The notes beneath the pieces were generated by a model. The model did no database searches and had not been told where the DNA came from. It worked only from the letters and a program-made list of their open reading frames with translations. Positions 36,127 through 41,494 of a DNA stretch of 64,000 nucleotides are shown here, piece after piece (the first letter of the stretch is position 1; the number at the start of each line of letters is the position of its first letter). The DNA comes from Microlunatus panaciterrae. Lineage in GTDB: Bacteria > Actinomycetota > Actinomycetes > Propionibacteriales > Propionibacteriaceae. Position numbers and translations under genes: made by a program. The DNA lies in contig NZ_JAFBCF010000001.1 in NCBI RefSeq assembly GCF_016907535.1, positions 3,782,001 through 3,846,000 on the forward strand. Reading direction: 5' to 3'.

Positions 36127-37281
36127 TCAGGACTTGATCGTCCATACCCGGTACCTGGCATTGAAGATCGCCTCGGAACCCCACAGGCCATTACTGCAGA
36201 TCCAACCCGTGACCTTCACCGCATTGTCGCCGTCGGGCTGGTAGTCGTAGGCCATGAGACTCCTCTCGGCCTGGCGATTCATTTCCAGTGAGATCTGCGT
36301 TACGCCGGCGTGCCCCGGATCACCCTTGTCGCGGTCGATCTGCCAACCGGGCTGCAAGCGATGCTCGTTCAGGATCGTGACACAGTGGCCCCCCGAGCCC
36401 GCATCGGCATGGGCAGAGACGGTGAAGTCCTCGCTGCCCGTCACAGCCGGTGGCGGCAAGGTGACACTCACTTGATGTGCCGCCGTTGCTCGGAGTTTCC
36501 CGTCGCCCACGGTGAGGGTGACGGTGTAGGAGCCCGGGTGTGCGTAGGTGTGGGTGGCTTTTGGCTCATGCGCAGCAGGTTGTTGGTCGCCCCAGTCGAT
36601 GGTGTAGGTCCGGATGGCTGTGTCGTCAGTCGAAGCCGATCCATCGGCTGTCAGAGTCTCGCCCACCGTCAGTGATGTCGCCGATACGACGAGGTGGGCC
36701 GTCGGTGGCTGGTTGGGATGGCGCAGACCCAACGCCAAGGCGATCGCCAGTCCAGTGAGAATGAGTGCCCCAGCACCAATCGCCATGATCGCCCACGGAA
36801 GGTGGTGCGCATTCCTTGGGCCGCTGTCGGCGGGGACGGTGAAGGCCACGGATTGCCCGATCACCGGCCTCTCGGTGTCGTCTTCAGCCACAACCTCGAG
36901 CACCAGCGTGTACGGTCCGGCTCCGATGTCCGTGGGGACGGCGATTCTGACATTGACGGTCGCCGTGGCGCCCATCCCCATCGGCACCTCTGCCATCGGT
37001 ACCTCGGCTGTACCGACCAGGACCGACATCCAGTCATCTTTGGCGCCGTCTCGTCCCCGCGGCATCATCCGGACTCGTACTGGGCGACCGGTCAGGTTGG
37101 TCACGGTGAAAGCTGCCTCACCTCGTCGATTCGGCCCCAACAAGATTTCGGGCGCCGACGCGGTGACCGCAAATGGATCGGCCGCATTCACCGACGGGTC
37201 AGCGCCCAGGTCCTCCGGTCCCGCCGCCGTCCGAGGCACATCCCCTGGGCCAAGTTCACACCCCTTGGCGGAACCATCCAT
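36127..37281 (-). CDS. Single-pass membrane protein with extracellular PKD domain
   Basis: 384 residues from ATG 37281 (GGAG seven nt upstream); an upstream TTG at 37293 is less likely. Residues about 35-155 form a beta-rich domain resembling an NEW3/COG1470-like region, followed by one transmembrane helix (about 165-190). Then comes a PKD domain with T-I-D-W-G-D-Q and T-H-T-Y-A-H-P-G-S-Y-T-V-T-L. The last 100 residues are a Cys-containing domain I do not recognise. Possibly a surface-associated binding protein. It is followed on the same strand by no partner; the gene at 37315 precedes it by 33 bp and may be co-transcribed. Confidence 0.75.
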   Translation of the reverse strand: MDGSAKGCELGPGDVPRTAAGPEDLGADPSVNAADPFAVTASAPEILLGPNRRGEAAFTVTNLTGRPVRVRMMPRGRDGAKDDWMSVLVGTAEVPMAEVPMGMGATATVNVRIAVPTDIGAGPYTLVLEVVAEDDTERPVIGQSVAFTVPADSGPRNAHHLPWAIMAIGAGALILTGLAIALALGLRHPNQPPTAHLVVSATSLTVGETLTADGSASTDDTAIRTYTIDWGDQQPAAHEPKATHTYAHPGSYTVTLTVGDGKLRATAAHQVSVTLPPPAVTGSEDFTVSAHADAGSGGHCVTILNEHRLQPGWQIDRDKGDPGHAGVTQISLEMNRQAERSLMAYDYQPDGDNAVKVTGWICSNGLWGSEAIFNARYRVWTIKS

Positions 37282-37314
37282 GGTGCTCTCCAACCCGCCT
37301 CATCTTCTCGGCCA

Positions 37315-37692
37315 TCAGGCCGACTTGACCAAATCCGCCTGACAGCTGGACGAGATGAGATTGATCTTGAAGCCAGCCTCGGCACTGACATCGAAGGTGA
37401 GCACCGTTCCCTGGTCGTCTTCCGTCAGGTAGCAGCGCTTCGCGTCGGCGGTTTCGTAGACGCCTTTCTGCGGTCCCTCCACGACCTCGACGCGCACGCT
37501 CCATCGATCGAATCCGGTGAACAATCCGGTTTCGTAGTGGACCGTAAGAGGCTCACCACTCTGCCCGCCCGTCAAGCCCTCCCAAGTCTTGACCTCCGGC
37601 GGTTCGTCTCCGAACCTGTGATGCAGGGTGATGTTCGCTCGGCCGCCAAAATGATTCGTCACAGCAACCTGAGTACTCCGCTTATCGCTCAT
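37315..37692 (-). CDS. Hypothetical 125-residue beta-rich protein
   Basis: 125 residues behind a strong GAGGGAAG site. No signal peptide or membrane segment. Alternating hydrophobic strands (V-A-V-T-N-H-F-G-G-R-A-N-I-T-L and W-S-V-R-V-E-V-V-E) suggest a beta-sandwich, and two Cys occur near residues 87 and 117. It is likely co-transcribed with the PKD-domain membrane protein. Function not recognised. Confidence 0.65.
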   Translation of the reverse strand: MSDKRSTQVAVTNHFGGRANITLHHRFGDEPPEVKTWEGLTGGQSGEPLTVHYETGLFTGFDRWSVRVEVVEGPQKGVYETADAKRCYLTEDDQGTVLTFDVSAEAGFKINLISSSCQADLVKSA

Positions 37693-38407: not shown

Positions 38408-39016
38408 ATGGAGCATCCGGTAGCCAGGCACGCGGCGATTTCGGAGCGCGCCACTCGCCCTGTCGAAGCGCTGGCGGTGCGTGATCTGCGACCTCGCCAT
38501 GCGCAAGCCCTGGCCGATTCGCGGCAACGGAAGGCAAAGAGTCCTGGTGGCATTTTTGCGCTGGCTGCGGCCGTGCTCCTCGTCATCATTTCGCTGGCCG
38601 TCGTCTGGCTGATCAGCCGGCCGGCGTCAACCGGTGTCTCGGCCCCGATTGCGGGCACTGCCGAAGCTCCAAGGTCGGCGACTGCGCGGACGACCTCCGA
38701 CGGCGGCAACGCCTCGGGAGACCCCGTCTCGACGGGGGCAGCGTCCTTCCAGTTGACGGATCCGGTCGACTCGGCGAAGCCCTTCCAAGTCGTTCCGATT
38801 CGTGGCGTACACCTGGGTGGGACCAACACCGTTCTCCAGGTCCAGCGCATGGATCGGGGGAGGTGGGTGTCCTTCCCGGTGCCCACAGTGACCGACGAAT
38901 CAGGCCACTTCGCAACCTACGTGGAGCTGGGTAAGCCCGGACGTTATTCGCTACGAGTGCTGGATCCTGCGTCGGGCGCCGCGTCACGACCGTTTGTTCT
39001 CGTGATCAAGGGCTAG
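38408..39016 (+). CDS. Single-pass membrane protein of unknown function
   Basis: 202 residues with GAGGGAGGTGGG before the ATG. A cytoplasmic head of about 47 residues rich in Arg is followed by one strong transmembrane helix (A-L-A-A-A-V-L-L-V-I-I-S-L-A-V-V-W-L), a Ser/Thr/Ala-rich linker and a C-terminal beta-rich domain (residues 125-202) with S-G-H-F and P-G-R-Y-S-L-R-V, as in surface Ig-like domains. It lies beside a sortase gene on the other strand. Probably an exposed accessory wall protein. Confidence 0.65.
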   Translation: MEHPVARHAAISERATRPVEALAVRDLRPRHAQALADSRQRKAKSPGGIFALAAAVLLVIISLAVVWLISRPASTGVSAPIAGTAEAPRSATARTTSDGGNASGDPVSTGAASFQLTDPVDSAKPFQVVPIRGVHLGGTNTVLQVQRMDRGRWVSFPVPTVTDESGHFATYVELGKPGRYSLRVLDPASGAASRPFVLVIKG

Positions 39017-39042: not shown

Positions 39043-39750
39043 TCAACGAACCGTCGAAAGCCTGGCAAAGACGACGACGTTGTCCAAGTAGCGGTGCCGA
39101 GACGAATCGTAGGTTCCCCCACAGGTGATCAGTCGTAGCCCGGCATGATCGATTGGTCCGTAGACCGCCTTTGTGGGGAAGCGGGCCTTCGCGAATCGGG
39201 ACACCCGGACGACGGTGAAGACGGCCGTCTTGCCATCACTCCGCCTGACACTCACGTGATCACCGCGCCGCAGACTGCCTAGTCGGTAGAACACGGCTGG
39301 AGCACGGTTCCAGGTCACGTGCCCGGCTATGATGGCCGGCCCGAGCGCACCTGGAGCGGCCCCTCCGATGAACCAGCCGGGCTGGGCCGGGTCGTGGGGT
39401 ACCTCAAGTTCTCCACGCGCATCGAGACCCAAGCGGACCAGTGTGGTGCGGACACCGAGCCGCGGTATCGCGACCGACACGGGATCTGACTCGGGGAGGA
39501 CCGGTCCCGTGATCCGATCACGCACGTCGGGTTGGTCCCTGTGCGTGCTGGCTCGTTCCACCGGGGGTTTCGGCCTCGTCGAGGTTGCTGACGGTGCACC
39601 CTGCCTGTCCGCCGACGCGGCGAGCGCTGGCTCAGCAGGGGACTGTCGTCCGACCGCTCCCCAGATCAACAGCACGCCGACGATGGCCAACCCGAGGGCG
39701 ATGCAGGCCCTTATGAGTCGGCTGCGGTCCACGGGCGATGGCCTGAGCAT
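39043..39750 (-). CDS. Class F sortase
   Basis: 235 residues; GGAGG precedes the ATG. N-terminal membrane anchor (14-34), a Pro/Thr/Arg-rich linker, then a sortase beta-barrel. Catalytic His144 (A-G-H-V-T-W), Cys210 (L-I-T-C-G-G) and Arg in S-R-H-R-Y-L-D-N are present. Class F enzymes of actinobacteria attach or process surface proteins. The upstream gene in the same direction, 108 bp away, encodes an exported CHRD protein with a membrane tail that is a likely partner, although it lacks a canonical LPxTG. Confidence 0.9.
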   Translation of the reverse strand: MLRPSPVDRSRLIRACIALGLAIVGVLLIWGAVGRQSPAEPALAASADRQGAPSATSTRPKPPVERASTHRDQPDVRDRITGPVLPESDPVSVAIPRLGVRTTLVRLGLDARGELEVPHDPAQPGWFIGGAAPGALGPAIIAGHVTWNRAPAVFYRLGSLRRGDHVSVRRSDGKTAVFTVVRVSRFAKARFPTKAVYGPIDHAGLRLITCGGTYDSSRHRYLDNVVVFARLSTVR

Positions 39751-39858
39751 CAGCCTCCGCGTGACTCCGGGGCAGCGGACTGGACCGGCCTCTCCTGAAG
39801 CATGGCAGGGCCTCCCAGATCGTGCCCTCCAGAAGAGATAGTGCCGCGGCGGTGCCGC

Positions 39859-40665
39859 CTAGCTGTCATCGGACCGCACCGGTGATCGGCGACGCCTTCG
39901 CCAGGGACGCGCGACAGCCGCAGATAGGAGCAAGAGCGCACCTCCGACCGCGGCAGTCGGTCCGTTCGCGCCGAGCGGCGGGGCACCGCCGGTCTCGGCT
40001 CCGTGCCGGGCCGGCTCGGCAGCACCGGCCCCAGTCACCACGCCGCAGCTTGCCGGGTCAGTTGCCTCCTCCGGTATGCCATGCAGTCCGAGGCGCTCCG
40101 CGAAAGTCGAGACTCCGAGGGCTGCCACGTCGTACTTGCCGTTGTGGTTGACGTCGATGCCGTGCTGCACGACGTGCAATGCCGACAGGTGCTCGCGCAG
40201 ACCAGGGGGAATCATGGCGGCGGGGAAGGCTCGGTCGTAGTTGATTCGGCCCTTCGAGTCGGCGACCGGCATGCGTTTGACGTCGAGCCCGTCGTGCGGG
40301 GTCACGCCGCCGCTGGTCGTCAACGCGAAGAAGATGGTCCCGTACTCACCCATCGCCTCCTCGTTGGTCAGGATGCCGTCATGGTTCTTGTCGTTCATCT
40401 TCAGTGTGGGACAGCCGAAGTGCCCGCCCTCCGCGGACCCGTGAAGGTGCTGGGCGTGAGGCTGGTTCGGCACCAGACCCTGCGAATGAATGACCACCCG
40501 AAGGCCACCGTTGCTGAGTGCCGTCAGGGTCGCCGTACCAGTGGCGCCGCTGTGGTTCTGTTCCAGCAACGTACCTTTCACGGTCGTGTCAGCGGCAGCG
40601 CTCATCGGGGCGAGCATCAGTGCGACCGTGACGGCCAGCATCGCTGAGTAGCGCAACGCGGTCAT
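39859..40665 (-). CDS. Exported CHRD-domain protein with EF-hand-like loops and C-terminal membrane tail
   Basis: 268 residues. Signal peptide 1-25 (A-A-A-D cleavage). The CHRD domain has H-L-H-G-S-A-E-G-G-H-F-G-C-P. A 12-residue loop (Asp92, Asn94, Asp96, Glu103) and a second loop (Asp171, Asn173, Asn175, Asp179) look like calcium-binding EF-hand/dockerin loops. The C-terminus has G-G-A-P-P-L-G-A-N-G, a hydrophobic stretch and R-R-R-R-R, the architecture of a cell-wall sorting signal without LPxTG. It is co-directional with the class F sortase and a probable substrate or partner. Confidence 0.82.
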   Translation of the reverse strand: MTALRYSAMLAVTVALMLAPMSAAADTTVKGTLLEQNHSGATGTATLTALSNGGLRVVIHSQGLVPNQPHAQHLHGSAEGGHFGCPTLKMNDKNHDGILTNEEAMGEYGTIFFALTTSGGVTPHDGLDVKRMPVADSKGRINYDRAFPAAMIPPGLREHLSALHVVQHGIDVNHNGKYDVAALGVSTFAERLGLHGIPEEATDPASCGVVTGAGAAEPARHGAETGGAPPLGANGPTAAVGGALLLLSAAVARPWRRRRRSPVRSDDS

Positions 40666-40939: not shown

Positions 40940-41494
40940 GTGAAGGTGCGAGCGGCGGTGGTCGGTGACGCCGAGCGGATCGCCGCCCTCAACGCGGCGG
41001 GGTGGCGCGCCGGGTTCCGCGGCTTGATCAGCGACGCCTACCTGACGGGCTACGACGGGCTCCCCGAATTGCGCCACCGAACGCTGGCCGAACCCGCAGA
41101 TGACGACCTCCAGCTGGTGGCCGTCGACGGGGAGGAGATTGTCGGCTGGGTCGCAGGCGGCTCGGCGCACGAGGACGATCTCGGGCCCGGGGCCTACCAG
41201 GTCCGGGCCTGCTACGTGGACCCCGATCGCTGGCGCACCGGGATCGGGCGCCGGCTGCTGACAGCGCTGATCGACCATTTGGACCCGGGGCGATGGACTC
41301 ACCTGGTGCTCTGGACGCTGCGGGATGCGGCGCCGACCAACGCGTTCTACAGCTCGCTCGGGATGGTGCGCGACGGCCGGGAAGCGCTGCTCGAACGGGG
41401 CGGTCCCGTGCCGCTGGTGCGCTTCTCCGCCCCGCTCACGCACCTGCGGACCGAGCCGCGTGTGCCGCAGTCCAATGGGAACTCGGGCGAGTAG
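40940..41494 (+). CDS. GNAT family N-acetyltransferase
   Basis: 184 residues from GTG 40940 (GCGAGGA upstream). The GNAT core has V-R-A-A-V-V-G-D-A-E-R-I, G-W-R-A-G-F-R-G-L-I-S, then C-Y-V-D-P-D-R-W-R-T-G-I-G-R-R-L-L, which is the acetyl-CoA loop, and N-A-F-Y-S-S-L-G-M-V. It resembles acetyltransferases of small amines or drugs. Substrate unknown; stands alone. Confidence 0.85.
   Translation: MKVRAAVVGDAERIAALNAAGWRAGFRGLISDAYLTGYDGLPELRHRTLAEPADDDLQLVAVDGEEIVGWVAGGSAHEDDLGPGAYQVRACYVDPDRWRTGIGRRLLTALIDHLDPGRWTHLVLWTLRDAAPTNAFYSSLGMVRDGREALLERGGPVPLVRFSAPLTHLRTEPRVPQSNGNSGE

Follow-up and report, generated by a model that had tools for sequence, protein, structure and literature searches.

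A class F sortase gene behind the gene for an exported protein with a G-x-x-T-G tail in Microlunatus panaciterrae, and the occurrence of such tails beside actinobacterial class F sortases

The window analysed here, a stretch of 64,000 nucleotides from Microlunatus panaciterrae, contains a class F sortase gene placed directly behind the gene for an exported protein whose C-terminal tail carries a conserved G-x-x-T-G element, here GAETG, ahead of a hydrophobic stretch and a run of arginines. The pair itself is ordinary, more than 100 like it having been seen in this analysis, and its tail type already has a database name. The interest lies in the rule: class F sortases are mostly found directly behind such a tail, and enzyme and motif are both off the standard, the motif by differing from LPxTG and the enzyme by an asparagine at the place of the catalytic arginine. 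We regard it as probable that the pair forms a two-gene surface-display unit, in which the class F sortase anchors the exported protein through GAETG.

The function or role of class F sortases is called unknown in passages of papers from 2020 and 2026 (PMC6998099, PMC13251363), and no class F motif other than LPXTG was found in the literature consulted, i.e. mostly titles and the beginnings of abstracts, with few subscription papers. The motif and the sortase-substrate gene pairs make class F substrate recognition directly testable. Many unnamed tailed proteins would become predicted wall proteins, a G-V-x-T-G tag could serve as an orthogonal peptide-ligation tag, and natural Arg/Asn variants are on offer for the question of the role of the sortase arginine.

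The gene pair and its tail

The features of the pair are collected in Table 1. The two genes are co-oriented, the one for the CHRD/SOD-like protein upstream and the one for the sortase downstream, with a GGAGG sequence 3 bases ahead of the sortase ATG, a short spacing. A promoter and terminator scan gave no terminator-like site in the 108 bp between stop and start, and no Rfam match at gathering scores was found within the window. Both flanking genes are on the opposite strand: an ORF (38408-39016) with a single membrane stretch and no Pfam match on one side, and a GNAT acetyltransferase (40940-41494) on the other. Elsewhere in the window, positions 36127-37692 (minus strand) encode a PKD-domain protein with one membrane stretch, beside a protein with a match to PUD1_2; this family was described from long-lived daf-2 worms. 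The host genome, one contig of 4.07 Mb, gave three sortase matches, one of class E and two of class F. The second class F sortase (176 bits) lies directly behind a paralogue of the CHRD/SOD-like protein, 45% identical to it and with the tail motif GGVETG.

Table 1. Positions of the features of the pair and of two loci used for comparison (window coordinates unless a locus is named)
Feature	Position	Strand	Basis
CHRD/SOD-like exported protein with sorting tail, presumed substrate, 268 aa	39859..40665	minus	ORF, homologues, fold search
Signal peptide by eye, residues 1-25, MTALRYSAMLAVTVALMLAPMSAAA	40591..40665	minus	sequence; model helix 2-17
EF-hand type loop DKNHDGILTNEE, residues 92-103	40357..40392	minus	conservation in 39 homologues
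Second, less canonical calcium-type loop, D171-x-N-x-N-G-x-Y-D179	40120..40155	minus	conservation in 39 homologues
Predicted sorting pentapeptide G-A-E-T-G, residues 222-226; predicted cut T225/G226	39988..40002	minus	conservation; disordered in model
L-G-A-N-G of the sequence-only reading, residues 231-235, not conserved	39961..39975	minus	alignment A2
Tail hydrophobic stretch, residues 238-252	39910..39954	minus	sequence; model helix 237-251
RRRRR, residues 256-260	39886..39900	minus	sequence
108-bp gap between the two ORFs	39751..39858	minus	sequence
Class F sortase, 235 aa; His144, Cys210, Asn224 at catalytic-Arg place	39043..39750	minus	NF033748, 192 bits
Asn-type sortase loci, same-family genus with LPxTG proteins	L157 1-1143 + 1222-1929; L161 2315-3370 + 1474-2157		

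That a class F sortase adjoins an exported protein, and that this protein has the layout of a sorting substrate, had both been proposed from the letters alone, and both hold. The sortase scores 192 bits against NF033748 (class F; curated cut-off 166), and the protein opens with what looks like a signal peptide and contains GGAPPLGANG followed by a hydrophobic stretch and RRRRR, with LPxTG absent. No match to the LPXTG anchor model TIGR01167 was listed for the protein or for its tail. The latter reads HGAETGGAPPLGANGPTAAVGGALLLLSAAVARPWRRRRR, followed by 8 further residues.

Homologues were searched in 196 genomes of the order, 20 of which (the host genome included) gave a match. The tailed ones carry P-x-G-G-[V/A/M]-x-T-G or something near it, then a spacer, a hydrophobic stretch and basic residues. 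GAETG aligns in register with their GVxTG; among 18 aligned homologues G222 and G226 never vary and T225 hardly does, and among 39 both T225 and G226 are invariant. The window protein has the G-x-x-T-G, the spacer, the hydrophobic stretch and the basic C-terminal end, and lacks the P-x-G at its usual place. G-x-x-T-G is the best-conserved part of the tail and sits in a disordered linker: in the predicted model residues 221-235 are below a pLDDT of 50, which fits the expectation for an exposed signal.

Tails of this type and class F sortases

A survey of the tails next to class F sortases, as the sequence-only reading had suggested, did bring out a common motif. Class F sortases over the cut-off are present in 162 of 394 genomes of the class Actinomycetes; the best listed site was taken for each of 74 genera, with 6 second sites, giving 80 loci. 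An upstream same-strand ORF with a hydrophobic-plus-basic tail was found in 66 of these, and none by these criteria in the other 14. A strict motif, P-x-G-x-[VAPMI]-x-[TAG]-G ahead of the hydrophobic stretch, was present in 45 of the 66 tails, where 500 shuffles gave 1.4 on average and never more than 5. Among 43 tails elsewhere in the survey loci it was present in three, two of which are further tails in two-tail loci. The 21 upstream tails that miss it comprise several G-V-P-[A/S]-G-like ones and others that are spurious ORFs. The survey took the longest upstream tail ORF; at L093 this one was spurious, and another ORF there has PSGGVATG. LPxTG-like strings were seen in 4 of the 66 tails, none of them convincing. 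The class F sortases of L137, L139 and L142-L147, which score under the NF033748 cut-off, have tails of the G-V-P-[A/S]-G kind or similar ahead of them; by its sequence, G-V-P-[A/S]-G in place of G-V-x-T-G is possibly a second sub-motif.

A tail profile built from 29 tails, the two of the host genome being left out, was compared with the C-terminal 75 residues of the ORFs, keeping the best domain per ORF. Of 30 class F loci, of which 25 belong to one family (f22), 26 had a motif-bearing tail by this profile; none of 30 class E loci did. Three of the test loci (L035, L047 and L062) are also survey sites, though outside the profile.

The database name of the tail type is that of the NCBI model NF058571, 'GVDTG sorting domain' (44 positions, cut-off 29 bits). 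It shares with window-type tails the P-x-G-G-V-x-T-G register, the spacer, the hydrophobic stretch and the arginines; the window tail differs by its GAETG and by having no Pro-x-Gly lead. The model name states no sortase class, and the link with class F comes from the present surveys. No literature tying this tail to class F was found, the papers containing the letters GVDTG being, by title, not on sortases. Across 75 genomes, 33 tails were over the NF058571 cut-off and 30 of these lay at most 1.5 kb from a listed class F sortase; the other three comprise two tails of genome G466 and, in G360, the second tail of a tandem locus. Among weaker matches, the proportion was 28 of 45 for those with the motif part and 0 of 38 for those without it. 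The class F neighbours that could be counted in this way were the sites among the best matches listed, plus the two of the host genome; one match, a second piece of an ORF already in the count, was dropped. It is the motif part, rather than the hydrophobic part, that tracks class F sortases.

Among these tails that of the window is divergent, and it is mainly through its homologues that it can be recognised. It is the exception among the 31 tails of alignment A4, 30 of which match NF058571 at E <= 1: the window protein gave no match even at E <= 10, and the paralogue reached 27.1 bits when its protein was compared and 31.5 bits when the genome was searched. In the profile built without the host genome the window tail scores E = 0.017 (Z = 1000) and the paralogue 1.5e-13, and it is on this score and on the missing NF058571 match that we call it divergent. 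The A4 profile, which includes the window and paralogue rows, was also run on the host genome, where it was scored against 150 of the 218 candidates of a first look. It brought out two motif-bearing tails, those of the paralogue (1.6e-14) and of the window (1.7e-9), all others being at 0.086 or above; there was no third such tail among these 150. All other A4 rows had been picked by the strict motif, so the invariant P, T and G of that alignment are partly a selection effect.

Independent of the tail, 80 loci (the best of 155) were collected by patterns of the ectodomain. A same-strand sortase is present in 76 of them, and the sortase domain starts -50 to +250 bp from the stop codon in 76 of the 79 rows that have a sortase. 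G-x-x-T-G follows the ectodomain in 74 of the 80 loci; five of the other six have G-[A/S]-[V/I]-E-T-G, and the remaining one, L192, looks frame-shifted. Among 113 homologue rows (7 of them repeating an earlier tail), 97 have tail and sortase, counting three with GAIETG, outside the search pattern; 6 have the tail only, 8 have neither and 2 have the sortase only. Two of the tail-only rows come from a tandem pair whose sortase lies beyond the stretch examined, as seen in L009, and another (L212) is near the end of its contig. One sortase-only row is the frame-shifted L192; the other (L218) is a second copy 3.3 kb off. At L192 (3956-4759) the tail is apparently in a shifted frame past the ectodomain, with the sortase still downstream; the shift may reflect an error of sequencing or a true loss. 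At L009 and L101/L222, two copies of the tailed protein stand ahead of one sortase, and at L009 their tails are identical.

That the tail is a membrane anchor alone, and the neighbouring sortase acts on other proteins, seems unlikely to us: its most conserved part is the G-x-x-T-G in the disordered linker, the proximity of class F sortases goes with the motif (30/33, against 0/38 for the hydrophobic part only), and in the stretch examined no same-strand sortase accompanies the eight homologues that lack the tail. Such a tail would by itself be enough for anchoring, though, and some observations would suit an anchor, namely the divergence of the window tail, which NF058571 does not match, the 17 of 45 weaker motif-bearing matches for which no listed class F sortase is close by, and three true exceptions among close homologues (L177, L178 and L179; 55-63% identical) which are tailed and have no same-strand sortase in the stretch examined. 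As for the other proteins, the sequence-only reading had named cleavage of nothing but LPxTG substrates elsewhere as a finding that would count against it, and the host genome offered no convincing substrate of this kind. The LPXTG model gave 14 matches there at E <= 10, of which the 3 over cut-off and 1 of the 11 others were inspected, and none of the 3 is a C-terminal sorting tail.

The sortase and its presumed mode of action

The predicted model of the window sortase has a sortase fold (pLDDT 89), and all 50 listed fold matches are sortases, the top ones being SrtE of Thermobifida fusca. By sequence, phmmer found no relative in the PDB at E <= 0.1. The class F profile matched other sortases of the PDB at 3.2e-6 or weaker, and 5UUS, named as a class F structure in a passage of PMC9520033, at 7e-4. 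His144 and Cys210 are invariant in the sortase alignment A6. The Cys-His-Arg triad of sortases is nevertheless incomplete: Asn224 stands at the place of the arginine, as asparagine does in 38 of 39 aligned class F sortases. In a profile alignment to class E, it falls on the class E arginine, directly past a five-residue gap. Asparagine was likewise read in 79 of 82 survey hits (the others being two Ser and one Asp) and in 80 of 80 hits from the homologue loci, a tally of hits above 60 bits from which class E enzymes are omitted, along with three of the four Arg-bearing relatives and one of the two Asn-bearing ones described below. By its score over the cut-off, its kept His and Cys and its Asn for Arg, the enzyme shows no marked difference from actinobacterial class F as modelled by NF033748. 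With class E sortases, which have LAxTG substrates, it shares the fold; class E differs by keeping the arginine in 32 of 33 alignment rows (the remaining one having a gap), and by its loci being free of GVxTG tails in the test above.

The asparagine swap is already in print for actinobacterial class F: it is stated in a passage of PMC6998099, citing Malik and Kim 2019. According to parts of PMC9520033, LPATA and LPATS, when bound, are contacted by the sortase arginine at their P4 and P3 carbonyls; also cited there is an evolved enzyme that recognises LMVGG and has a serine at the arginine place.

A contrast is provided by another genus of the window's family, where six genomes gave 10 sortase matches. 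Four weak class F matches (47-62 bits) bear arginine, as in SRVFFYA, and no sorting tail was seen beside them among neighbouring ORFs of more than 200 aa. One genome (G005) has no sortase match besides the Arg-bearing enzyme, and it encodes an LPRTG protein. Two sortases (52 and 71 bits) bear asparagine and lie behind ORFs ending in GGGIHTGDVPGG plus a hydrophobic stretch, i.e. tails of the GGIHTG type (GGGIHTG). The remaining sortases are of class C, class E-like or unclassified. LPxTG tails are readable in four of the six genomes; in G048 the neighbour of that tail is a class C sortase, and control genomes likewise give matches to the LPXTG model, which makes the LPxTG part of the contrast only suggestive. 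A tree places the Arg-bearing group within class F, though its branch is very long and the neighbouring forks are open. At the sequence level, the six enzymes of this one genus fit a scheme in which asparagine goes with GVxTG and arginine with LPxTG.

These observations lead us to a broader proposal, in which we place slightly less than even confidence: actinobacterial class F would be a separate code, made of dedicated pairs reading (P-x-G)-[G/A/S/H]-[V/A/P]-x-T-G, with the Arg-to-Asn and Leu-Pro swaps coupled, and the few Arg-bearing class-F-like enzymes would be LPxTG readers. One residue of the enzyme would then foretell the motif. The Arg-bearing enzymes may be kin of SrtF of Cutibacterium acnes, described in part of PMC13251363 as the first class F enzyme reported. 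The LPXTG passage of a review (PMC7913060, citing Di Girolamo 2019) has this SrtF acting much like SrtA of S. aureus; it shares the class F label with the window sortase and is set apart from it here on that description.

A nearer parallel, also by description, is found in Actinoplanes missouriensis. As related in portions of PMC13251363, deletion of all four of its class F sortases gave no visible phenotype, and SrtF1 and SrtF4 have neighbours (AMIS_11010 and AMIS_36440, respectively) with a signal peptide, a membrane stretch and a basic end. The authors suggest these as possible substrates and set them aside because a known pentapeptide is absent. Common to these pairs and to the window pair is a class F sortase beside an exported protein with a hydrophobic stretch and a basic end. 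The relatives of the window protein in several Actinoplanes species carry GGVxTG, and a class F sortase lies next to them.

For the window pair, we infer the following course from sequence and models. The product of the first gene would be secreted; it would have a Cu/Zn-superoxide-dismutase-like (CHRD-type) domain bearing EF-hand-type loops, and its C-terminal hydrophobic stretch and arginines would keep it in the membrane. The disordered G-A-E-T-G ahead of that stretch would be recognised by the class F sortase encoded next, whose Cys210 would cut between Thr and Gly, and the Thr would be joined to a cell-wall precursor. This group of sortases would read G-[V/A]-x-T-G rather than LPxTG, with Asn224 located where the arginine of other sortases holds the P4/P3 backbone. 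Counting against this course are the outlying window tail, the 14 survey loci with no upstream tail ORF and the 21 tails off the strict motif, the tailed homologues and weaker NF058571 matches away from a sortase, and the A. missouriensis deletion.

The enzyme might also cut the tail and mainly release or polymerise the protein instead of joining it to the wall. The tight pairing of one sortase with one tailed protein would equally be expected of dedicated pilus or release systems, and asparagine in place of arginine could change the second step; we nonetheless hold this to be improbable, as no pilin-like partner gene was seen adjoining the pair, and tail, membrane stretch and arginines are arranged as in ordinary wall sorting. 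Very improbable is recognition within GGAPPLGANG, as the sequence-only reading had it: L-G-A-N-G does lie close to the hydrophobic stretch and has an L-x-x-x-G outline, but it has no conserved counterpart in the alignment of 18 homologues, even a relative of the same genus having GVETGGTPVATAEPP at this place and GVETG at the motif place, where other relatives hold GVxTG. Of that earlier proposal, the departure from LPxTG is supported by the tail surveys, and the element becomes GAETG/GVxTG, the last Gly of which is the start of the string first singled out.

The cargo protein

The protein presumed to be displayed had been called a CHRD protein. By sequence this class was dropped, the CHRD domain PF07452 scoring 17.3 bits over residues 35-80 where Pfam needs 24.1 bits; the predicted model (mean pLDDT 83) nevertheless resembles Cu/Zn superoxide dismutases, which it matches in Foldseek. 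For 1jk9 the E-value is 1.2e-5, with a TM-score of 0.63 by target and 0.38 by query and an rmsd of 7.1. H73, H75, H168, C85 and C207 are invariant among 39 homologues.

The EF-hand-like loops, also pointed out beforehand, are conserved in the same number of relatives: in DKNHDGILTNEE, which agrees with the EF-hand loop consensus, G97 is invariant and D92 and E103 are at least 90% conserved, and in the second loop D171 is invariant and D179 nearly so. From the conservation of these loops the protein may be viewed as a putative binder of calcium; it may also bind Cu or Zn.

Some secreted homologues (L016-L021, L028 and L029) end soon past a conserved Cys-Gly and have neither a hydrophobic tail nor a same-strand sortase nearby; the family would then comprise free as well as anchored forms. 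A genome of the same genus (G113) has relatives at five loci (L006, L028, L032, L033 and L034), tailed and tail-less, of which L033 and L034 have an identical tail and an equal score.
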